Positions 778-36,792 of a DNA stretch of 41,689 bases are shown one piece after another. Origin of the DNA: Chloroflexota bacterium (GTDB lineage Bacteria; Chloroflexota; Anaerolineae; Promineifilales; Promineifilaceae); NCBI GenBank assembly GCA_018004935.1, contig JAGNBF010000029.1:28436-70124 (forward strand), in the 5' to 3' direction. The stretch's first letter is position 1; every line of letters starts with the position of its first letter. The notes below the pieces were generated by a model. It made no database searches. It had not been told where the DNA came from and saw nothing but the letters and a program-made list of their open reading frames with translations. The position numbers and the translations under genes were made by a program.

Positions 778-2844
778 ATGCACTACTTACAGGATAAGAT
801 TGACCTGATCTGGAAACTTGCTGAACTGCTACGCCATGACTATCAACAACGCGAAAATGCTGATGTTATCTTGCCGCTAGTCGTTCTGCGCCGTCTGGAT
901 CAGGCGATGGCTCCTACCCGCCAGGCAGTACGCGCCGCTTACGAACGATATACTGGCAAACTGCAAAATCTGGATGCTGTATTAAGCCAGGCGGCTGGTG
1001 GTTCGCTTGTTTATAATCACTCCGAGTTTGACTGGGACACCTTACTCAATGCGCCAACCGATGTGGCTCCCAACCTTATCAACTATCTCAATGGTTACAG
1101 TCCTGAAGTGCAAGACATCATCGAAAAATTTGATTTCCGACGTCAAATTTCTCGCCTGCAATCGGCTAAATTGCTCTACCCCTTGCTCAAAGCATTTGAA
1201 AATGTTGACCTTCACCCTAAAACTATTAGTCCCCATGACATGGGGTACATTTTTGAAGATTTAATCCGCCGCTTCAACGAGCAGGACAACCAGACGGCTG
1301 GTGAACATTTCACCCCTCGCGAAGTCATCGAGTTGATGGTAGACCTGCTCCTAAGCGAAAACCCAGAAGCGTTTCTCGGTCCAGATAAAATCGTTGAGAT
1401 TTATGATCCTGCCTGCGGGACCGGCGGGATGTTATCCGAAGGGAAAAAGGGTGTCACACGTAATCACGGTCAAAAAACCGAACAGGTTTATCTGTTTGGG
1501 CAAGAAATTAACCCCACATCCTTTGCCGTTGCCAAAGCTGACCTGTTGCTAAAAGAAGAAAATCCGCGCAATCTCGCCTTTGGCAACAGCTTTAGCGAAG
1601 ATGGCCACCCCGGCAAACGGTTCCGCCTCATGCTCTCCAACCCCCCTTTTGGTGTGGAATGGAAAAAGGTGGAATACATTATTCGTAATGAATACGAGGT
1701 GAAGGGTCACGATGGCCGTTTTGGGGCTGGCCTGCCGCGTATTACGGATGGCTCATTCCTTTTTTTGCAACACATGTTGGCCAAGCGGTTTGGGGATGCG
1801 GTGGGGAGTCGCATCGCTGTCATTTTTAATGGTTCACCTCTTTTTACCGGCGACGCAGGTAGCGGCGAAAGTGAAATCCGCCGCTGGATTATTGAGCATG
1901 ATTGGCTAGAAGGCATTATTGCTTTGCCAGAGCAGATGTTTTACAACACGGGCATCAGTACCTACATCTGGATTGTGACCAACCGCAAAAGTACCCGACG
2001 CAAAGGCAAAGTGCAGTTGATCAACGCCGCTGATTTATGGGTACCGATGACGCCGCGCAGTTTGGGCAATAAACGCCGCCGCATCAACGATAAACAGCGG
2101 GCGCAAATTGTAGAACTGTATAAGGCCTTTCAGAATGGTGAATTGGGCCGTATTTTTGACAACGCCGATTTTGGGTACCGCCGCATTCGTGTGGAACGCC
2201 CCCTACGCCTGAACTTTCAGGCAACGCCAGAGCGGATTGAGCGTCTGTGGGAGCAAAAAGCGTTTACCGCCCTGACCGAGAGCAATACCAAGAACGAAGC
2301 AGAGAAAGAAAAAGAAATAGCCGCCGGGCAAGCGTTACAAGAAGCGATTCTGGCTACCGTGCGCCAATTGCCCACCGACCAACTGCGCGACCCGCACCGC
2401 TACCAACCGCTTTTAGATGATGCCCTCAAGCCCTTAAAATTGAAGGTCTCTTTACAAAAGGCAGTTTTGAACGCCCTGACGGAACGGGACGAGACCGCCC
2501 CGCCGGTGCCGGGCAAAAGGAGCGAGTGGGAACCGGATACCGACCTGCGCGACCATGAAAATGTGCCGCTGACATACACCCCTTCTCTTTATGATGAAAA
2601 TGTGCCGCTGAAATTGAATGTGTATGATTACTTTGTGCAAGAAGTCAAACGGTACATTGATGATGCCTGGATAGATGAAGCGTACCGGGACGCGCAAGAT
2701 GACAAGGTGGGGGTGGTGGGCTATGAAATCAACTTCAACCGCTATTTTTATCGGTATGAACCGCCGCCCCACCCCGCTGAACTGGACGAACAAATTAACC
2801 GACTGGAAGAAGAAATAGCCACCCTGCTCAAGAGCCGCCGATGA
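778..2844 (+). CDS. hsdM: Type I restriction-modification system methyltransferase subunit HsdM
   Basis: N6-adenine DNA methyltransferase subunit of a type I complex; with HsdS it methylates the host recognition site using S-adenosylmethionine. The 688-residue protein has the N-terminal helical HsdM domain, then the SAM-binding motif D-P-A-C-G-T-G-G at residues 210-217 and the catalytic N-P-P-F at 288-291, which is the order of the gamma class. The C-terminal part (about 480-688) is longer than in the shortest family members and charged. An in-frame GTG lies at 571, but ATG 778 starts M-H-Y-L-Q-D-K-I, the usual HsdM beginning, so it is preferred. The 213 bp upstream hold no gene; a weak promoter may lie near 686-716. 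The stop overlaps hsdS by four bases. It carries no GCGGCCGC, unlike most genes further right, suggesting recent acquisition. Confidence 0.95.
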   Translation: MHYLQDKIDLIWKLAELLRHDYQQRENADVILPLVVLRRLDQAMAPTRQAVRAAYERYTGKLQNLDAVLSQAAGGSLVYNHSEFDWDTLLNAPTDVAPNLINYLNGYSPEVQDIIEKFDFRRQISRLQSAKLLYPLLKAFENVDLHPKTISPHDMGYIFEDLIRRFNEQDNQTAGEHFTPREVIELMVDLLLSENPEAFLGPDKIVEIYDPACGTGGMLSEGKKGVTRNHGQKTEQVYLFGQEINPTSFAVAKADLLLKEENPRNLAFGNSFSEDGHPGKRFRLMLSNPPFGVEWKKVEYIIRNEYEVKGHDGRFGAGLPRITDGSFLFLQHMLAKRFGDAVGSRIAVIFNGSPLFTGDAGSGESEIRRWIIEHDWLEGIIALPEQMFYNTGISTYIWIVTNRKSTRRKGKVQLINAADLWVPMTPRSLGNKRRRINDKQRAQIVELYKAFQNGELGRIFDNADFGYRRIRVERPLRLNFQATPERIERLWEQKAFTALTESNTKNEAEKEKEIAAGQALQEAILATVRQLPTDQLRDPHRYQPLLDDALKPLKLKVSLQKAVLNALTERDETAPPVPGKRSEWEPDTDLRDHENVPLTYTPSLYDENVPLKLNVYDYFVQEVKRYIDDAWIDEAYRDAQDDKVGVVGYEINFNRYFYRYEPPPHPAELDEQINRLEEEIATLLKSRR

Positions 2845-4151
2845 CCACCTATCGCCCTTACTCCGTTTACAAACCTTTCGATGTGGACTGGTTGGGTGAT
2901 TTGCCAAACCATTGGGAATTACGCCGCTTAAAGTTTGTTGCTCCACCAGCCACAACAAAACTCAATGAAAAACCGACTGATAAACTGTATCTTGGTTTAG
3001 AAAATATCGAATCTGGAACGGGGCGTTTGCTTCTTGATTCACCCATTGAAAATGTTGAAAGTGTTGTCACCGTTTTTCAACCTGATGATGTGCTTTTTGG
3101 CAAGCTACGCCCATACCTTGCCAAAGTTGTTCATGCGGATTTTGAAGGGGTATGCACTGGTGAACTTATGGTGTTGAGGCCAGTCAATCATTTGGTTCAC
3201 AGCAGATTTCTCTTTTACCTGATGCTCTCACATGGTTTTATCAACATTGTGGATTCGATGACTTATGGGGCCAAAATGCCTCGCGCTAATCCTAACCATG
3301 TAGTCAATTTGCCAATATCGTTACCCTCACTAGCGGAACAGCGGGCGATTGCGGCTTTTTTAGATCGGGAGACGGTCTGGCTGGATACGCTGATTGCCAA
3401 AAAGCGGGAATTGATTGATCTGTTGCACAAACAGCGCACGGCGATCATCAGCCACGCCGTCACCAAAGGGCTAAACCCCCACGCCCCCCTCAAACCCAGC
3501 GGCATCGAATGGCTCGGCGATGTACCCGCATATTGGGAAGTAAGGCGATTGAAGTTTCTGCTCAAAGAGCGATTGAGATACGGGGCTAATGAAGTCGCCG
3601 AGCTAGATAATCCTAATTACCCCAGATACATCCGCATTACAGATATAAACCCTGATGGCTCTCTGCGGAGTGATACGTTTAGATCGTTACCGCCGGAAGT
3701 AGCAAAGCCTTATATGCTCAAAGATGGTGATATTCTGTTTGCTCGGAGTGGTGCAACCGTTGGCAAGACTTTTCAATACAGTTCAGCTTGGGGAGATGCC
3801 TGTTTTGCAGGTTATTTAATCTTGTGTCGCCCCGATAATCGGTTGATTGATTCCCGATTTCTATATCTTTTCACGCAATCCCATTCCTATCTTTCGTGGA
3901 GAGACAGCATATTTATTCAAGCCACAATCCAAAATATCAGCGCAGAGAAATACTACAACGTGATTATTGCCGTTCCACCTTTATCAGAACAACAACAGAT
4001 TGTTGATTTTCTTAGCCAAGAGACCGCATACATAGATGAAATGATCGCCAAAATAGAAACCAGCATTGACCTATTGCAAAAACAACGCACCGCTATTATT
4101 TCCGCGGCCGTCACTGGCAAAATAGACGTGCGTACACAGGAGCCAGCCTAG
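2841..4151 (+). CDS. hsdS: Type I restriction-modification specificity subunit HsdS
   Basis: DNA-recognition subunit of the type I complex, 436 residues. It shows the two-fold layout of HsdS: target recognition domain 1 at about 12-165, a central conserved helical region at about 166-210, domain 2 at about 218-380 and a C-terminal conserved region at 381-428. The halves are internally similar: D-W-L-G-D-L-P-N-H-W-E near residue 16 pairs with E-W-L-G-D-V-P-A-Y-W-E near 223, and the K-Q-R-T-A-I-I-S helices near 197 and 414 match. Recognition would be of a bipartite sequence, which cannot be read from the protein. The start ATG overlaps the hsdM stop (ATGA), implying translational coupling, and the next gene begins 3 bp after the stop. 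No inverted second hsdS is present, so there is no sign of phase-variable shuffling. Confidence 0.95.
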   Translation: MTTYRPYSVYKPFDVDWLGDLPNHWELRRLKFVAPPATTKLNEKPTDKLYLGLENIESGTGRLLLDSPIENVESVVTVFQPDDVLFGKLRPYLAKVVHADFEGVCTGELMVLRPVNHLVHSRFLFYLMLSHGFINIVDSMTYGAKMPRANPNHVVNLPISLPSLAEQRAIAAFLDRETVWLDTLIAKKRELIDLLHKQRTAIISHAVTKGLNPHAPLKPSGIEWLGDVPAYWEVRRLKFLLKERLRYGANEVAELDNPNYPRYIRITDINPDGSLRSDTFRSLPPEVAKPYMLKDGDILFARSGATVGKTFQYSSAWGDACFAGYLILCRPDNRLIDSRFLYLFTQSHSYLSWRDSIFIQATIQNISAEKYYNVIIAVPPLSEQQQIVDFLSQETAYIDEMIAKIETSIDLLQKQRTAIISAAVTGKIDVRTQEPA

Positions 4152-4154
4152 CCC

Positions 4155-5114
4155 ATGTCCCGCCTGGATGACCTCATTGACCTGATTCAGACAACCAACG
4201 AAGTCTACTTCATCACCGCACCTGGTCGGGTCCGCACCGCCTACATTCTAGTAGATGACATTGTGGAACTGGCTCTGAAAACCTTTTTGCAAGAAAAAAC
4301 ATTAGAACAACGCCAAAACTGCCAGAGCGCATTGGAAACGGCAAGATTTGTCACCTCAAGTAATCATCGTAATGCCCTGCAACGTTACTTTGAAGCAAAG
4401 AGTGATCTTGCTACCCTGAGTAGCGATTTGGGGCGAGGAACGGCAGGAATCTCCCTCATTCAAACCGAATTAAATCATTTCCCTCTGGTTCAACATTGGA
4501 GTGCTAACGACTCTAGCAAAACCCCTCATTACCCTGAAGTAGTGCGTGATGTCAAATCATTTTTCCTGTCTGGGCATAGCATCGTGCCCATGTTAGACGC
4601 GGCCGCAGATCGTCACAACGTTCGCAATAAGTTTTACCACGATCATCAACATGCAGGCTTAACAATAGATGATGATAAATGCCTGACGGCGTTATGTGGC
4701 ATGTATGATCTTATAACTGCACTCTTCCCCACCTTTACAACCCATCTACAACAGACAAAATACAAAATTATCCGTTGCCAGATTGGTGTATTACGCTTGA
4801 AATTAGCAGCGCATGGGGCACAAGACTTGAAAGAGCCTTACAACAAAGCCTTAGCACAATTTGAGCGCAACCACCAAATAACTAAATGGTCAGACAACTT
4901 CGAACATAGCATTCTTCACACTATCAGCGAAAATTTTTTTGTTGCGTTACGTGAGCAATTGCGGGAAGCCATTGCCCAAAAGAAGAGCCGCGTAGATAAA
5001 ATTACCCAAATGCGTAACCCAAACGCCACACAGCGGGCAGAAGCTGAAATAGGGCAACGAATTGTTAATGTACTTTCCCAACAATTGGTAGATATTGATG
5101 CTTTGATGACTTAA
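4155..5114 (+). CDS. Unknown protein inside the type I R-M operon, possible HEPN-type ribonuclease
   Basis: Not recognised as a named family. The 319-residue, mainly helical protein sits between hsdS (3 bp upstream) and hsdR (14 bp downstream), so it is almost certainly co-transcribed and functionally tied to the restriction system. Residues 157-162 read R-N-K-F-Y-H, which fits the R-x4-6-H active-site pattern of HEPN ribonucleases, including the preferred polar residue right after the arginine; two more histidines follow at 164 and 166. HEPN nucleases are known partners of type I systems (PrrC, RloC), but those carry an ABC-like ATPase and this protein has no Walker motif. The C-terminal part (about 210-300) is rich in charged helix. 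The operon's only GCGGCCGC (4599) lies in this gene. The HEPN reading rests on one short motif; it could equally be a structural accessory protein. Confidence 0.8.
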   Translation: MSRLDDLIDLIQTTNEVYFITAPGRVRTAYILVDDIVELALKTFLQEKTLEQRQNCQSALETARFVTSSNHRNALQRYFEAKSDLATLSSDLGRGTAGISLIQTELNHFPLVQHWSANDSSKTPHYPEVVRDVKSFFLSGHSIVPMLDAAADRHNVRNKFYHDHQHAGLTIDDDKCLTALCGMYDLITALFPTFTTHLQQTKYKIIRCQIGVLRLKLAAHGAQDLKEPYNKALAQFERNHQITKWSDNFEHSILHTISENFFVALREQLREAIAQKKSRVDKITQMRNPNATQRAEAEIGQRIVNVLSQQLVDIDALMT

Positions 5115-5128
5115 AACACGAGTCAAAC

Positions 5129-8080
5129 ATGGATACATCTGAACACGCCTTCGAAGCCTATATCGTTGAAAATTTGACCGAGGTTCATGGCTACCGCCTG
5201 CGTACTAGCAAAACGGATTACGACAAAACCACCTGCCTGGATTGGGAACTCCTGCTGGCTTTCATCACCGCTACTCAACCCCAAACCTGGGCCGATTTAA
5301 CCCGGCAACATGGCCCGTTGGTCAAAGAAAAGTTTGTGCGCCGATTGGTCAAAGAAATTGAGCGGCGCGGCACACTGGACGTTTTGCGGCGCGGCGTCAA
5401 AGATTCCGGCTGTTACTTCCAACTGGCCTATTTTCAACCTGCCAGCCGCCTCAACCCTGAACATTGGTCCCTGTACGGCAAAAACATCCTCTCCGTCATG
5501 CCACAATGCCGTTACAGTGCCATTGAAAACAGAGACGCACTCGATCTGGTCATCTTTCTCAATGGCCTGCCCCTCTTTACTCTGGAACTTAAGAATAAAC
5601 AAACCGGTCAAGGCGTCACCAACGCCCGTCAACAATACGCCAAAGACCGTCAGCCCAAAGGGGAACCGTTGTTACAGTTCCGCCGCTGTCTGGCCCATTT
5701 TGCCGTAGATGATGATGAGGTATACGTCACTACCCGGCTGGAAGGGGCACGCACCTACTTTTTACCCTTCAATCGTGGCCTTAACGGGGGTGCGGGCAAT
5801 CCACCCAACGCTAACGGCTACGCCAGTGCCTACCTGTGGGAAGATGTGTTCACCCCGGCCAGCGTTTTGGAACTGGTGGGCAGTTTCCTGCATCTGGAAA
5901 ACGGCGACCAACCAGCACGGCTCATTTTTCCCCGCTACCAACAGCGTGATGCAGTACAAAAACTGTTGGCCCATGCTCGTGTACAAGGGCCAGGGCAAAA
6001 TTACCTCATCCAACACAGTGCGGGCAGTGGCAAAAGCAACACCATTGCCTGGCTGGCCCACCGGCTGGCTTCCCTGCACAACGCCCAAAACCAGCGTGTC
6101 TTTGATTCTGTCATCATCATCACCGACCGGCGTATTTTGGATAAACAGCTACAAAACACGGTGCGCCAGTTTGAGCAGGTGGCAGGCGTGGTGAGCGTTA
6201 TAGACAAGGACAGCGACCAACTGGCCGACGCCCTGAGCGGCGGCGCGGAAATCATCGTCAGCACCCTGCAAAAATTCCCCTTTGTCCTGAAAAAAATAGA
6301 CACATTAGCCGGGTGTACCTTTGCCATCATCGTAGACGAAGCCCACTCCTCACAAACCAGCGAAGCCAACAAAAAGCTAAAAGAAGTCCTGCGTGTAGAC
6401 TCACTAGAAGAAGCGGAACGACTGGATGACCCAGCCAATGAACCCAGTGGCGAAGATTTGGTAAACCAGAGCATGGCGACGCGGGGGCGGCAATCGAACC
6501 TCAGCTTTTTTGCTTTCACCGCCACCCCCAAACAGAAGACGTTGGAGTTATTTGGTATAGAACAAGCCGATGGAACATTTCGCCCGTTTCATCTTTACTC
6601 CATGCGGCAGGCCATCGAAGAAGGGTTTATTCTGGATGTTCTGCAAAATTACACTACCTTTGCTACCTATTTTGAATTGTTGAAAACGGCCGCAGACGAC
6701 CCCCGCACCGAAAAAAGCAAGGCGTTTGGCCTGCTCAAACGATACGTGGGGTTACACAAATTCACTATCGCCCAACGCGCCGCTCTGATGATTGAACATT
6801 TCTGGCAAACCTCGCGCCTCAAAATCCCCAACTTGCAAGGGGTAGGCGAAGCCAAAGCGATGGTTGTCACCGCCAGCCGCTTACATGCCGTTTTATACAA
6901 ACAGGCGTTTGACAGCTATTTGAAAAATCAAAATTACCCCATCAAAGCGTTAGTCGCCTTCTCCGGCACGGTCAGCTATCAAGGGACGGATTACACCGAA
7001 GCGCAAATGAATGGCTTCCCCGAAAAACAAACGGCCGAGCAGTTCAAAAAACCGGAACACAAATTCCTGATCGTTGCCGAAAAGTTCCAGACCGGCTTTG
7101 ATCAACCGCTCTTGCATACGATGTACGTGGACAAGAAACTGGCGGGTGTTCACGCCGTACAAACCCTCAGTCGCCTCAATCGTACCCACCCCCGCAAAAC
7201 CGATACGATGGTGCTGGATTTCGTCAACAATGCCGACGATTTAGAAGAGGCGTTTGCACCTTACTTCGAGACTACCATTTTGAGCGAAGGCAGTGATCCC
7301 AATAAGTTGTACGACCTGGAAGGGGAACTGGCTGAGTTCGATCTGTACACATCAGACCAGGTAACTGAAATTGCCGAACTGTATCTGCGAAAAGGGGAAA
7401 AAGCGGCTAAATTACAGCCTTTGTTACGGGCTGTAGTGCAAAAATACCGCTATATCCCCGGAGTTGAACGACGTGTCCAGTTTAAGCATCTCCTACGCTC
7501 TTTCGTCAGCCTGTACGCCTTTCTCTCGCAGATCATTACCTTTCAGGATGCTGATTTGGAACGGTTGTACCTGTTTGCCCGGCTGTTAACTCGTGCTCTG
7601 CCTCAAGAAAAAGAACGGGAAACGTTACATGTCCATGAATTGGTGGATTTGGAGAGCTACCGGCTACAGCAAACGTTTAGCGGCAAAATCAGCCTGCAAC
7701 GGGGCGATGGTCAACTTGATCCCTTGTCTGATCTGTTAGCCAGCCAATTAAATGAGCCAGAAAAAGCCGCCCTTTCGCAAATTATCCGCGAACTCAATGA
7801 GCGGTTCGGTACAGAGTTTACTGAGGCAGATCGTGTCTTTTTTGCTGAACTCAAAACCCGCCTGGCAAATAATGAAAGTTTACAAGCCAGTGCGAAAGCT
7901 AACACGCGGGACAGTGTGCGTTTGTTGCACGATATTCTCTTCAATGCCGTATTACAGACAATGATTGAGAATAATTTTGAGATGTTCCGTCGCATCAATG
8001 ATGATGAAGCATTTGGGCAATCGGTACGGGAAAGAATTTTTGAGCAGGTGTATCGGGAAATTCAGAAGCCAATGAGTTAG
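5129..8080 (+). CDS. hsdR: Type I restriction-modification endonuclease subunit HsdR
   Basis: Motor and nuclease subunit; it translocates DNA by ATP hydrolysis and cuts unmodified DNA away from the recognition site. The 983-residue protein begins with a PD-(D/E)xK nuclease domain: D139 and E153-L-K155 are the expected catalytic residues. The superfamily 2 helicase core follows, with Walker A S-A-G-S-G-K-S at 297-303, D-E-A-H at 403-406 and T-A-T-P at 464-467, then the second RecA-like domain and a helical C-terminus. All key residues are present, so the enzyme looks active. It closes the hsdM-hsdS-unknown-hsdR operon. No GCGGCCGC occurs in nearly 3 kb, against one per about 520 bp to the right, which fits horizontal arrival of the cassette. 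Confidence 0.96.
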   Translation: MDTSEHAFEAYIVENLTEVHGYRLRTSKTDYDKTTCLDWELLLAFITATQPQTWADLTRQHGPLVKEKFVRRLVKEIERRGTLDVLRRGVKDSGCYFQLAYFQPASRLNPEHWSLYGKNILSVMPQCRYSAIENRDALDLVIFLNGLPLFTLELKNKQTGQGVTNARQQYAKDRQPKGEPLLQFRRCLAHFAVDDDEVYVTTRLEGARTYFLPFNRGLNGGAGNPPNANGYASAYLWEDVFTPASVLELVGSFLHLENGDQPARLIFPRYQQRDAVQKLLAHARVQGPGQNYLIQHSAGSGKSNTIAWLAHRLASLHNAQNQRVFDSVIIITDRRILDKQLQNTVRQFEQVAGVVSVIDKDSDQLADALSGGAEIIVSTLQKFPFVLKKIDTLAGCTFAIIVDEAHSSQTSEANKKLKEVLRVDSLEEAERLDDPANEPSGEDLVNQSMATRGRQSNLSFFAFTATPKQKTLELFGIEQADGTFRPFHLYSMRQAIEEGFILDVLQNYTTFATYFELLKTAADDPRTEKSKAFGLLKRYVGLHKFTIAQRAALMIEHFWQTSRLKIPNLQGVGEAKAMVVTASRLHAVLYKQAFDSYLKNQNYPIKALVAFSGTVSYQGTDYTEAQMNGFPEKQTAEQFKKPEHKFLIVAEKFQTGFDQPLLHTMYVDKKLAGVHAVQTLSRLNRTHPRKTDTMVLDFVNNADDLEEAFAPYFETTILSEGSDPNKLYDLEGELAEFDLYTSDQVTEIAELYLRKGEKAAKLQPLLRAVVQKYRYIPGVERRVQFKHLLRSFVSLYAFLSQIITFQDADLERLYLFARLLTRALPQEKERETLHVHELVDLESYRLQQTFSGKISLQRGDGQLDPLSDLLASQLNEPEKAALSQIIRELNERFGTEFTEADRVFFAELKTRLANNESLQASAKANTRDSVRLLHDILFNAVLQTMIENNFEMFRRINDDEAFGQSVRERIFEQVYREIQKPMS

Positions 8081-8199
8081 ACGACTGGCAGTAGATGTCA
8101 CCTGAGATGAACACAGTTTATTGGCGTTTAGGGTTGTTTGCATCTGTGCCTCAAGTCAATCATTGTAACACTCAGCGAGGTACGGTAAACTGTTTACTT

Positions 8200-8553
8200 A
8201 TGGACAGCAATCTAACAGAGCCAGTGTTGGAAGACGATGACATGCACCCAGAGTATGACTTTAGTAGTGGAGTGCGTGGCAAATACGCCAGAGCTTATCG
8301 AGAAGGGTACACCATAACTATTCATCAAGAAGATGGCACAACTGTGACGCAACATTTTAAACCAGATGCTGATGCTATTATCCTTGAGCCGGATGTGCAG
8401 GAGTATTTTCCTGATTCTGAAGCGGTGAATCGTGCCTTGCGTTCTTTGATTGCCCTCATTCCTCAAAAACGAAAACGTTCTAGAACCGTCCGTAAGGCCT
8501 CTGTTCCTGGCCCACAGCGTCAGACTGCTTCTGGTGATTCGCCGCGCCCGTAA
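8200..8553 (+). CDS. Small conserved protein, antitoxin-like, no adjacent toxin
   Basis: A 117-residue acidic protein with a basic tail. The core, Y-D-F-S-S-G-V-R-G-K-Y-A near residues 19-30 and then L-E-P-D-V-Q-E-Y-F-P-D-S-E near 62-74 followed by a short helix V-N-R-A-L-R, resembles a small family common in cyanobacteria and Chloroflexota that often sits beside toxin genes; this is from memory and no search was run. No toxin-like gene follows: the next gene is a hydrolase 23 bp on. The frame extends up to ATG 8095, but ATG 8200 or 8242 better fits the conserved start, and 8200 is chosen. The last 28 residues (K-R-K-R-S-R onward) are basic and look disordered. It may be a leftover antitoxin at the edge of the acquired restriction island. 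Confidence 0.65.
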   Translation: MDSNLTEPVLEDDDMHPEYDFSSGVRGKYARAYREGYTITIHQEDGTTVTQHFKPDADAIILEPDVQEYFPDSEAVNRALRSLIALIPQKRKRSRTVRKASVPGPQRQTASGDSPRP

Positions 8554-32977: not shown

Positions 32978-34327
32978 ATGACCTCATTGTCCCAACCCCA
33001 GGTAACGCTCATTGTTTTAAATTGGAATGCCCGTGCCTTTTTAGAGCCTTGTTTGCGTTCACTCCTGGCCCAAACAGGGCCATCTTTCCAGGTCTGGTTG
33101 GTAGACAATGATTCCAGTGATGATTCCATCGCTCTTGTACAGGCAAATTTCCCTCAGGTACAGATATGGGCCAATCGGCAAAACCTGGGTTTTTCCGGGG
33201 GCAATAATATTGCCTTGCGTGAGGTGCAAACTCCCTACGCGGTTCTCCTTAACCCAGATATCGTCGCCGAACCTGACTGGCTAACTCAACTCCTCATTCC
33301 TTTGGAAAATGATCCGACGATTGGTATTGCCGGTTGCAAGTTGTTTTACCCCGATGGACGTTTGCAACATGCCGGGGGGTTTCTCCATCTGCCTCTGGGA
33401 TTGGCTGATCATTTTGGTTATCTGGCTCAAGACAGCGGGCAGTTTGAAACTGTCCAGGATGTACCTTATGTGATTGGGGCGGCGTTGGCAGTACGGCGTT
33501 CTGTATGGGAAACAGTTGGTCTGCTAGATGAAGGATTTTTCCTTTATTATGAAGATACGGATTGGTGCCAGCGCGTCCACCGGCAAGGCTGGCGGGTTGT
33601 GGTTGTACCGCAGGCGCGGCTGGTGCACCATGAATCGGTGTTGACGGAGAAGAATAGTCTGACTTATTTACGCAATTTCCACTACGGCCGCTGGCGTTAC
33701 TTGCTCAAACACCTGCCCCCAGAACAACTCCTAAACGAAACCATCCCCGCCGAAAAGGCGTGGCTGGCCTCTAAACCAGAACGTGAACAGCACGCGGCCG
33801 CGGCCGCGTATCACCACCTCGTTACCCATCTCGACGAAACCTGGGCGGCCCGGGTACGTGATGGCAACAACGCCATCTCTCCCACTCAAGATGAAGCCAT
33901 TACCGCCGCCCTCCACCACCTGCACCATCTGGCCTGGACTTCAGCCGCCTATACCCAACTTCACTCCTGGCAAACCCGGCTAGAACAAATCGCCACATGG
34001 TCCATTCCGGCCTTTCGCTCCCCCACACCCATCCTTGGCCCTCTGTTCAATATTCTACGCACTCTCTGGAGCTACCTGGACACCCGGCCCGCTCTAGAGC
34101 CAATCAGGCAACAACAAAGTCACCTTAACCAACAGATGGCCGCCATTACCACTGGCTATCTGCGCTACCTGGAAACCCGGCATAACCACTCTGAGGCTAA
34201 AACCAACCAACACGATCAATGGCACGATCAATTGCGTCACCTACGCCACCAATTGGCCCAGGCCCATGCTCATCTCGATAAATTGGAAGCTCATCTCCAA
34301 CAACTTGAACGACCCAGGCAACTCTAA
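32978..34327 (+). CDS. GT2-family glycosyltransferase with C-terminal helical extension
   Basis: A 449-residue protein. Residues 1-250 are a GT-A glycosyltransferase of the rhamnosyltransferase-like GT2 branch: V-D-N-D-S-S-D at 42-48, N-L-G-F-S-G-G-N-N at 69-77, L-N-P-D at 91-94 as the metal-binding D-x-D equivalent, and Y-Y-E-D-T-D-W at 190-196 with the likely catalytic acid. It would move a nucleotide-activated sugar onto a surface polysaccharide. The last 190 residues are unusual: an Ala/His-rich stretch holding two overlapping GCGGCCGC copies (33794-33807), then a possible coiled coil at about 375-445. The stop shares one base with the start of the NACHT gene (TAATG), so the proteins are probably made together and may interact. 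Confidence 0.87.
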   Translation: MTSLSQPQVTLIVLNWNARAFLEPCLRSLLAQTGPSFQVWLVDNDSSDDSIALVQANFPQVQIWANRQNLGFSGGNNIALREVQTPYAVLLNPDIVAEPDWLTQLLIPLENDPTIGIAGCKLFYPDGRLQHAGGFLHLPLGLADHFGYLAQDSGQFETVQDVPYVIGAALAVRRSVWETVGLLDEGFFLYYEDTDWCQRVHRQGWRVVVVPQARLVHHESVLTEKNSLTYLRNFHYGRWRYLLKHLPPEQLLNETIPAEKAWLASKPEREQHAAAAAYHHLVTHLDETWAARVRDGNNAISPTQDEAITAALHHLHHLAWTSAAYTQLHSWQTRLEQIATWSIPAFRSPTPILGPLFNILRTLWSYLDTRPALEPIRQQQSHLNQQMAAITTGYLRYLETRHNHSEAKTNQHDQWHDQLRHLRHQLAQAHAHLDKLEAHLQQLERPRQL

Positions 34328-36792
34328 TGCTCATCCTCACTCTCATGGCTCAATCGGGTATCCGTTGGCGGCCTGACGGGCCGTCACTCTTGCTTGGTCT
34401 CATCATCGGTGTTTTGCTCGTCCTCTTCATTCAGAAATTCTGGCCCCTTGTGCGCCGCTGGCGGCAACGAGTCGCCGGACGGGTCGAAGAAACACGAGCC
34501 TGGGTACGCTCAGGCATTGACACCCGTTACCGCCAAGAATTGGCCACCTATCTGGAACACTACCATTTACTGGGGCAACAGGCTTCATTACCGGCTGTTT
34601 TTGTTGCCCCCCATTTTCTGGCCCCAACCGCTCTAGTAGATCTGACTCAGTTACGAGCGAATGGGCCAGAACAGTTGCGCTATCTCTGGCCGGAATTGGC
34701 GAACCGTATCGCCTTACCCCAACCGCCTACCGTTTCCTTTCATCACCTGCTTCGTAATGGCCATCGGGTTGCTTTGACCGGTGAATCAGGAGCAGGCAAA
34801 ACCACCCTTTTGGCATATGCGGCTTATCTGGCAACCACTGTCACGGAGCGCGAGGAATACGCTTTTTTGCGCGACCGCCTGCCGGTTTTTGTACACCTGG
34901 CAGAACTGGATCTAACAACACCCGCGGCCGCAACCGATCCCCTCGCGCCCCTATCCGCTGTCCTGGATAACCGGGCCAGTGCCCTTACCAGCACCGGTAT
35001 TGATCGTTATCTCCGTCAGAGTGCCACCGCCGGTATCCTGACCCTCTATCTGGATGGCTGGAATGAAGCTGGCCCCACCGAACAGCAAACCTGTTGCCGC
35101 TGGTTGGCCCAATTATTAACGGCTTACCCTACCACCCACATCATCGCGGCCGCACCCCTCACTGGTTATGGCCCTCTTCTCGAGTTGCAGTTTATCCCTA
35201 TTCAGATATTGCCCTGGCGTGTGGGGCAGGCCACCACCTACGCCCAACAGTGGCAAACTGCCACCCAGCAAAAACAACATCCCCATCTGCCCAGTTACTG
35301 GCAAGCAGGGCAAACCATTACCGAAACGGTTTTGCGCCACCATCTGGCCCAGGCGAGAGAAACCGCTCCCGAACGGCAAGTAGAACTCTTGGAATTGCTA
35401 CTGCGGCCGCACCTGAGCGGTGATGCCAAAATGCCCCCCTGGTTTTTACCCCTCATGCGAGATGTATGGCAGGCAATGGCCTGTCACTTGCTCACACAAG
35501 GCCAGGTAGCCCTTACCCCCACCGAAATTACCCGCCTTATCGAAGAGTACGCGGCCGCAAATGAAATTAATGAGCGAAACCTCTTCCCCCGTTGGCGCAC
35601 CTTCTCTCTGGCTACCGGGCTATTCCAGGAATGGGGCAATGGCCGCATTAGCTTCAAAAGCACCCTTTGGCGTGACTACCTGGCCGCTTCTCACCTGGCG
35701 CAAACCCCCACTGCCGTACCCCTGGCCGAAAAATTGGACCAACCCATCTGGCGCGAAGTCATTCGCTTGTATGTAGGCCGGACAGGCGGCCGCGATCTGG
35801 CCACCATCCTCACCCAGCAAAAAGACAAAGCCCCCTGGTACGATAACCTCTTCCAGATGGCGTCCTGGTTTCCCGAACTACCCCAAAATGAACCCTGGCA
35901 ACGCCCCGTCTTAATTCAACTGGGCAAAATGGTCTTACAATCAGAAATGCCTTACATGCTTCGCTATCGGGCCATTGCGGCCATGGCCCTTACCCATGAT
36001 GCCGGTACACGCGTTTTTTGGCAACAACTCCTCCAACGACCAGACCCCCTTCTCCGTGAAATGGCCGTGCTTTGCCTCACCCACCAGGGGGCCGAAAAAG
36101 TGATTGACATCTGGAACAAAATGTTGACCGATGGCACCCCCGAAGTACGGCGGGCAGTTATCTGGGCGATGGCCTGGACCGGTGCCGCCGTAACGGAGAA
36201 ACCACTGTTGGTCGCTCTTTTAGGCAATGATGACCGGTTAAGCCTGTGCGTAGCTGAAGCCCTGGCCTGGAATGGAGGTGAAAGCTGGACAATCCTCAAA
36301 GAGGCACTACATGAAGAAACACTAGCAGTGCGGCGTGCGGCAGTCTGGGGGATAACACAACTGGATGAACCGTGGGCCATGACCCTGTTGGAGCACGTCC
36401 AACATGAGGATCGAGAGTGGATTGTCAAAACGGCGGCTCAGGAAGGGTTGACCGAGATTCAAAGCCGACGCCAATTGTCTCCCTGGGTCGCCCCAAACCC
36501 AGGTGACATGCCCTGGCTGGTGCAATGGACAACACGGCAGGGGCGAGGGGTTCCCGCGGCCGCGATACCCCTTGTTTTCGAGATGTTACGCCAGGCCGAA
36601 AAAGCGGATCAGCGAGCCTTGGCCGCCCTCGGTTTGGGACAGATGGGGATCAAAGAAGCCGTTGCCCCCCTGCAAACCGCCCTCCGTGACCCAGAGAATC
36701 CAGTAGTAGAAGCGGCTTTTGTCGCCTTAGGTTTACTCCGACGCATTTACACAGGAGTTCCCCATGTGCCTTTGGCACACCAAGAGGGATGA
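34327..36792 (+). CDS. Membrane-anchored NACHT-type NTPase with HEAT repeats
   Basis: An 821-residue STAND-class protein. One membrane span at about 19-37 is followed by basic residues, so the bulk is cytoplasmic. The NTPase core has Walker A G-E-S-G-A-G-K-T (152-159) and a NACHT-style Walker B, L-Y-L-D-G-W-N-E (D243-E247), where small and acidic residues follow the aspartate as in NACHT rather than AP-ATPases. A winged-helix/linker region follows (about 330-500), then HEAT-like helical repeats at about 540-700 and 735-815. NACHT proteins sense invaders or envelope signals and signal by oligomerising; this one's effector would be the short N-terminal anchor. It is translationally coupled to a GT2 enzyme, which points to envelope sugar sensing or defence, both inferred. 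The 3' end is duplicated downstream. Confidence 0.85.
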   Translation: MLILTLMAQSGIRWRPDGPSLLLGLIIGVLLVLFIQKFWPLVRRWRQRVAGRVEETRAWVRSGIDTRYRQELATYLEHYHLLGQQASLPAVFVAPHFLAPTALVDLTQLRANGPEQLRYLWPELANRIALPQPPTVSFHHLLRNGHRVALTGESGAGKTTLLAYAAYLATTVTEREEYAFLRDRLPVFVHLAELDLTTPAAATDPLAPLSAVLDNRASALTSTGIDRYLRQSATAGILTLYLDGWNEAGPTEQQTCCRWLAQLLTAYPTTHIIAAAPLTGYGPLLELQFIPIQILPWRVGQATTYAQQWQTATQQKQHPHLPSYWQAGQTITETVLRHHLAQARETAPERQVELLELLLRPHLSGDAKMPPWFLPLMRDVWQAMACHLLTQGQVALTPTEITRLIEEYAAANEINERNLFPRWRTFSLATGLFQEWGNGRISFKSTLWRDYLAASHLAQTPTAVPLAEKLDQPIWREVIRLYVGRTGGRDLATILTQQKDKAPWYDNLFQMASWFPELPQNEPWQRPVLIQLGKMVLQSEMPYMLRYRAIAAMALTHDAGTRVFWQQLLQRPDPLLREMAVLCLTHQGAEKVIDIWNKMLTDGTPEVRRAVIWAMAWTGAAVTEKPLLVALLGNDDRLSLCVAEALAWNGGESWTILKEALHEETLAVRRAAVWGITQLDEPWAMTLLEHVQHEDREWIVKTAAQEGLTEIQSRRQLSPWVAPNPGDMPWLVQWTTRQGRGVPAAAIPLVFEMLRQAEKADQRALAALGLGQMGIKEAVAPLQTALRDPENPVVEAAFVALGLLRRIYTGVPHVPLAHQEG

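Follow-up and report, generated by a model that had tools for sequence, protein, structure and literature searches.

The 41,689-nucleotide stretch of Chloroflexota DNA considered here (the window) carries a type I restriction-modification (R-M) operon on its forward strand in the order hsdM-hsdS-P0001-hsdR (Table 1). P0001 is an intact open-reading frame with an ATG start encoding 319 aa, and it lies 3 bp after hsdS and 14 bp before hsdR (hsdS stop at 4151, hsdR start at 5129), as a previous sequence-only reading of this DNA had described. The hsdM frame is open from 571 (571-2844), with the ATG at 778 as its likely start. The same reading had held that P0001 is not a known Hsd subunit and has no ATPase domain; both points stood, with no match to an HsdM, HsdS or HsdR domain in PADLOC, NCBIfam or Pfam, no ATPase profile in Pfam and no Walker A/P-loop in the sequence. 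The G+C content of the P0001 gene is 0.44, compared with 0.50 for hsdM and hsdR. A promoter scan of the operon performed no better than on shuffles and we claim no internal promoter, and a terminator scan of the operon was only slightly above shuffles.

Two other genes of the window were recorded in passing. A short open-reading frame just after hsdR (8095-8553) had no match in Pfam, its second half (MHPEYDFSSGVRGKYARAYREGY...) resembling a stand-alone small protein and not a part of the R-M operon. Further downstream, an 821-aa protein (34327-36792) has HEAT repeats and, below cut-off, weakly matches a NACHT-like NTPase; this domain arrangement recalls STAND-type immune proteins.

Table 1 Features of the operon and of P0001 in the window, with residue numbers referring to P0001.
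Feature	Position	Strand	Basis or remark
hsdM, type I DNA methyltransferase subunit	778..2844	+	PADLOC MTase_I 3e-245; Pfam HsdM_N and N6_Mtase
hsdS, specificity subunit, two target-recognition domains	2841..4151	+	PADLOC Specificity_I 3e-115; Pfam Methylase_S in two stretches
P0001, HEPN-fold protein, 319 aa, predicted metal-independent RNase	4155..5114	+	Family alignment, structure prediction, fold comparison
Helix 1, residues 1-20, MSRLDDLIDLIQTTNEVYFI	4155..4214	+	Most conserved part of the family; candidate partner interface
E38xxxK42 in helix 2, secondary HEPN signature	4266..4280	+	Invariant in 4/4 sequences covering that part
Insert, residues 49-112, variable	4299..4490	+	Missing from L004
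R157-N158-x3-H162, predicted active-site motif, end of helix 3	4623..4640	+	Invariant in 5/5 sequences; placement in the core model
C-terminal helical region, residues 193-319, long terminal hairpin, poorly conserved	4731..5111	+	
hsdR, restriction subunit (nuclease and SF2 translocase)	5129..8080	+	TIGR00348 5e-58; Pfam SWI2_SNF2, HSDR_N, T1R_D3

A rare protein family

Sequence libraries offered no direct relative of P0001. Pfam gave no family match at E-values up to 10, nothing was matched in PADLOC, PHROGs or the PDB sequences, and a single NCBIfam match far below cut-off was ignored; the curated HEPN profiles in Pfam, NCBIfam and PADLOC were likewise silent, HEPN families being mutually very divergent (PMC3710099). 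Searches of PDB sequences, whether with the single sequence or with a profile, returned chance-level matches only. Profile searches with the relatives described below against Pfam, PADLOC, NCBIfam and PHROGs yielded nothing usable either. Isolated weak matches to YtfE, RhoGEF, Relaxase_C and CHASE3 were inconsistent between family members and were discarded, as was a match to 3dby (0.012), whose alignment was confined to the insert and the beginning of helix 3 and did not cover the motif.

The searches yielded four relatives, whose organism labels span three phyla. The closest, 56% identical to P0001, is encoded on a metagenome-assembled contig labelled Devosia (L003), a host label that rests on binning, the contig holding only the R-M operon. 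A homologue from the same phylum as the window (L002, genome G288) is 32% identical, that of Acetivibrio mesophilus (L004) is 28% identical and has no insert at residues 49-112, and a partial homologue lies at a contig end (L010); the family alignment thus comprises five sequences, one of them partial. The family is rare: besides the window's own copy we found one among 400 genomes of the phylum, one more, partial, among 158 genomes of the class of G288, and two by pattern-scanning 84,980 species genomes, an approach that requires exact short matches and could miss divergent members. None occurred in the plasmids, phages and viral contigs searched, and no further homologue in the ca. 320-400 genomes each from the window's class and from around two of the relatives.

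As far as the searched libraries show, P0001 would therefore represent a new sequence family. To that extent the suggestion of a new module holds, whilst as a theme it is not new, HEPN genes in R-M operons being well known (PMC3710099). Between the Devosia-labelled operon and the window, HsdM and HsdR share 75% identity compared with the 56% of P0001; this lower identity, like the lower G+C content, is as would be expected for a faster-evolving cargo gene.

Active-site signatures and predicted fold

The sequence-only reading had pointed to an R-x4-6-H motif with a polar residue after the arginine at residues 157-162, and it is present there as R157-N158-x3-H162. In the HEPN superfamily this motif lies at the end of helix 3, where the loop towards helix 4 begins, the arginine again followed by a polar residue (PMC3710099). 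Taken alone the motif is weak evidence, as shuffling the residues of P0001 produced some R-x4-6-H in 93% of shuffles, R-x4-6-H with a polar residue after the arginine in 70%, and the strict form R[NDH]x3H in 13%. Conservation is more telling: R157 and H162, whose retention among homologues had been singled out beforehand as bearing on the HEPN reading, are invariant in all five sequences, and so is N158. Across the five, 13 of 152 gap-free alignment columns are invariant, and they include R153, R157, N158, H162 and D163, the last only if gaps of the type seen in L010 are left uncounted. Many HEPN families additionally carry an acidic Ex3[KR] motif in helix 2 (PMC3710099), which P0001 has as E38xxxK42; because the earlier reading had not mentioned this signature, its presence counts as an independent check.

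The most conserved part of the protein is not the catalytic helix. Helix 1, with the family signature MSRxDDLIDLIQTTNEVY, has 14 of its 20 columns invariant in four sequences, and mean pairwise identity falls from 0.82 in helix 1 to 0.46 in the motif helix and 0.25 in the C-terminal region. An artefact at the DNA level was ruled out, as identical residues use different codons at 6-12 shared positions, so selection on this helix acts at the protein level. Such conservation suggests a conserved partner, which could equally be the protein's own dimer contact. The C-terminal helical region may possibly be a tether.

Structure prediction for the window protein gave an all-helical model (pLDDT 77) with a long hairpin at the C-terminus and a low-confidence loop at residues 162-167. 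Foldseek found no significant match to the whole model, and the VIA-align rows were filled by the hairpin; the only N-terminal match of good rmsd among the top rows was the HEPN domain of Csm6 (chain residues 246-420; Z 7.8, rmsd 2.9, 130 residues). To avoid the hairpin problem we folded the insert-free core of the Acetivibrio homologue with the family alignment (pLDDT 85, pTM 0.82). This core has helices at residues 3-20, 22-48 (containing the equivalent of E38xxxK42), 65-75 (short), 80-101 and 112-139, the fourth of which ends in R96-N97-x3-H101. Rows 1-32 of its VIA-align search are all HEPN-type folds (Z 12.0 to 5.9), ahead of the first unrelated row at Z 5.5. They comprise Csm6, AF0298, SO_3166/HepT/MntA, sacsin, AbiV, HI0074, YutE, LsoA and HepS, and include two nucleotidyltransferase helical domains. 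The best row was Csm6 (6tug_D; Z 12.0, rmsd 3.7 over 140 residues), with 2hsb at Z 10.9 (rmsd 2.7 over 117) and SO_3166 and AbiV at Z 9-10; Z values up to 12 fall within the tool's warning range for helical bundles, but the list of matches is homogeneous. Foldseek also placed the Csm6 HEPN domain first for this core (prob 0.95) with an E-value that was not significant, and a viral structure library gave no convincing match.

The predicted fold thus has the HEPN topology that the sequence-only reading had anticipated, although the cleaner evidence for it comes from the Acetivibrio homologue and not from the window protein. From the motifs and the predicted fold together, a strongly supported combination, P0001 very probably encodes a HEPN-superfamily protein.

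Operon context and alternative explanations

In all four readable contexts (the window, L003, G288 and Acetivibrio) the gene immediately follows that of the specificity subunit (S), with 3-bp gaps or overlaps, and no other context was seen. The Devosia-labelled contig repeats the window's gene order, hsdM-hsdS-homologue-hsdR, and again 3 bp separate S from the homologue. In G288 and Acetivibrio the homologue starts at or inside the end of the specificity-subunit gene, the upstream enzyme is an HSDR_N_2 nuclease domain fused to an N6 methyltransferase, and no hsdR follows; in the near-complete genome G288, the single HSDR_N-type HsdR that was detected lies on a different contig. The association with S across two R-M architectures is, like the operon position itself, a direct observation. 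The placement between hsdS and hsdR noted in the window accordingly recurs in two of the four loci counting the window, the other two homologues sitting behind S with no neighbouring hsdR, and because of these latter contexts we regard S (with the methyltransferase), and not HsdR, as the family's constant partner.

Two further features of the Acetivibrio locus were recorded. The gene for the HSDR_N-methyltransferase is split inside its HSDR_N domain (L004:4449-6541; open-reading frames 4449-4733 and 4772-6541), which reflects either a broken nuclease part or an assembly error. The HEPN gene is immediately followed by one for a membrane protein of the Pfam family 8xMP, an octameric membrane protein family (L004:8781-9404).

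To see what else occupies the junction between S and R, we surveyed 19 operons from the phylum whose hsdR is related to that of the window (L046, whose hsdR frame was not recovered in the stretch, was left out). Of the 19, 7 have nothing in the gap, about 11 carry other genes there, and one (L064) is unclear. By Pfam the occupants include an IrrE-like peptidase and a Schlafen AlbA_2 protein, and by inspection PIN-like, RHH-like and similar small genes; a Ketogulonicigenium plasmid carries an annotated AAA ATPase and HNH pair there (cargo loci: L045, L047, L048, L050, L053, L055, L057-L059, L061, L062, L043). Some occupants are combined, as an IrrE-like with a PIN-like gene or as RHH/PIN-like pairs. 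Because unrelated genes, several of them of toxin-antitoxin or defence type, fill about 11 of 19 operons, the S-R junction is a slot for such genes, which supports a toxin or defence role for P0001 and is also compatible with mere cargo. In one further locus (L033:1-330, genome G230) an hsdR 78% identical to the window's has an internal stop codon, and the place of the HEPN gene is taken by the end of an apparent transposase-like open-reading frame upstream.

Such a slot raises the alternative that P0001 is a HEPN RNase carried as a passenger, with a trigger of its own (a phage component or stress, as in Abi HEPN proteins). Hsd subunits would then not control it physically, and the S-R junction would simply be a safe place to insert. 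The unrelated genes or empty gaps of the related operons fit this, as does the lower G+C content of the gene, yet a position behind S in two R-M architectures and in every readable context is more specific than a general slot would predict, and a first helix far more conserved than the catalytic one suggests a partner, even if that may be its own dimer; we consider passenger status rather unlikely.

A second alternative makes P0001 a regulator of the R-M enzyme, in the form of a catalytically dead, or RNA- or nucleotide-binding, HEPN protein; it might, for instance, hold HsdR off until modification is complete. The two loci with the gene between S and R would suit such a regulator. However, the full catalytic signature is invariant in the family, unlike in non-catalytic HEPN families, which lose it (PMC3710099), and in G288 and Acetivibrio the neighbour is an HSDR_N-methyltransferase fusion with S, with the sole HsdR detected in G288 encoded elsewhere, therefore an HsdR-specific role cannot be general. 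We regard regulation of this kind as improbable. On the G288 context we reject HsdR control as the general function; control of HsdR by the family is unlikely. The sequence-only reading, which had proposed an HsdR-controlling accessory as one option, is in this respect disfavoured, whereas its recognition of a HEPN protein stands and its other option, a suicide module guarded by the R-M system, is plausible. It is very improbable that P0001 is some all-helical accessory protein that has its R-N-x3-H motif and its HEPN-like fold match by chance, for although the motif is frequent in single-sequence shuffles and no known HEPN profile matches, both signatures are invariant, the motif sits at the end of helix 3, and 32 consecutive fold rows are HEPN-type.

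A proposed suicide RNase restrained by the modification complex

Our preferred reading, which we hold to be reasonably likely, is that P0001 is a HEPN endoribonuclease of a rare family, a translation-coupled cargo behind S, PrrC-like but with no ATPase, restrained by the modification complex. Of the possible arrangements we judge restraint by that complex the likeliest, since the family accompanies S in both architectures and one of its helices has hardly changed. P0001 is thus probably a suicide weapon kept in reserve and under the control of the R-M system, and we infer its RNase activity, restraint, trigger and RNA target in the following form. P0001 would be synthesised alongside S and M, and an interaction with the modification complex, possibly via the invariant first helix, would hold it inactive. 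When the complex is inactivated, overwhelmed or engaged by a phage, P0001 would be released or assembled into an active dimer and would cut cellular RNA (tRNA or mRNA), stopping phage growth at the cost of the cell. A more specific version is tentative: that this is a distinct HEPN family with the modification complex as its sole sensor, the first helix docking on a feature common to type I and HSDR_N-methyltransferase plus S complexes, such that DNA binding, inhibition or loss of the complex would switch on an ATPase-free suicide RNase.

The closest parallel is PrrC, whose gene lies within the type IC operon EcoprrI and which the type I enzyme keeps sequestered until phage T4 disables that enzyme and PrrC is freed (PMC3874165). 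P0001 shares with it a HEPN RNase motif, a gene inside a type I hsd operon and a probable back-up role (PMC3874165, PMC3710099), but has no N-terminal ABC ATPase and no detected sequence similarity, and its family also occurs in systems with no neighbouring hsdR, the Hsd restraint being in its case our inference. Neither does P0001, at 319 aa, have the ABC/SMC-type ATPase fused to the HEPN domain in PrrC and RloC. A 2013 survey put forward the same guard logic for at least 16 R-M-linked HEPN clades (PMC3710099). Like the stand-alone HEPN proteins of R-M operons (solo AbiJ, AbiU2, Abi2, Ymh, ApeA and other clades; PMC3710099), P0001 is a predicted HEPN RNase encoded in an R-M operon, but it matches no Pfam family and has its own helix-1 signature and a consistent place behind S. 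The HEPN domain of Csm6 from type III CRISPR systems is the best structural match to the core, reaching past the four helices (6tug_D), yet P0001 has no CARF sensor domain, its N-terminus being HEPN helix 1, no CRISPR genes lie beside it in its type I R-M operon, and no sequence similarity is detectable. With HepT-MntA (HEPN-MNT) it shares the HEPN fold and the R-x4-H motif, but it lacks an adjacent nucleotidyltransferase antitoxin gene, its neighbours being hsdS and hsdR.

The textbook example of an RNase under the guard of a restriction enzyme is PrrC, but the ATPase that PrrC carries makes it harder to ask how the R-M complex restrains it and then lets it go. The P0001 family, with a HEPN core, a C-terminal helical region, no ATPase and a tie to S in two architectures, would be a minimal system for a direct test of the guard hypothesis. 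It would be a compact, testable guard system and not a new principle.
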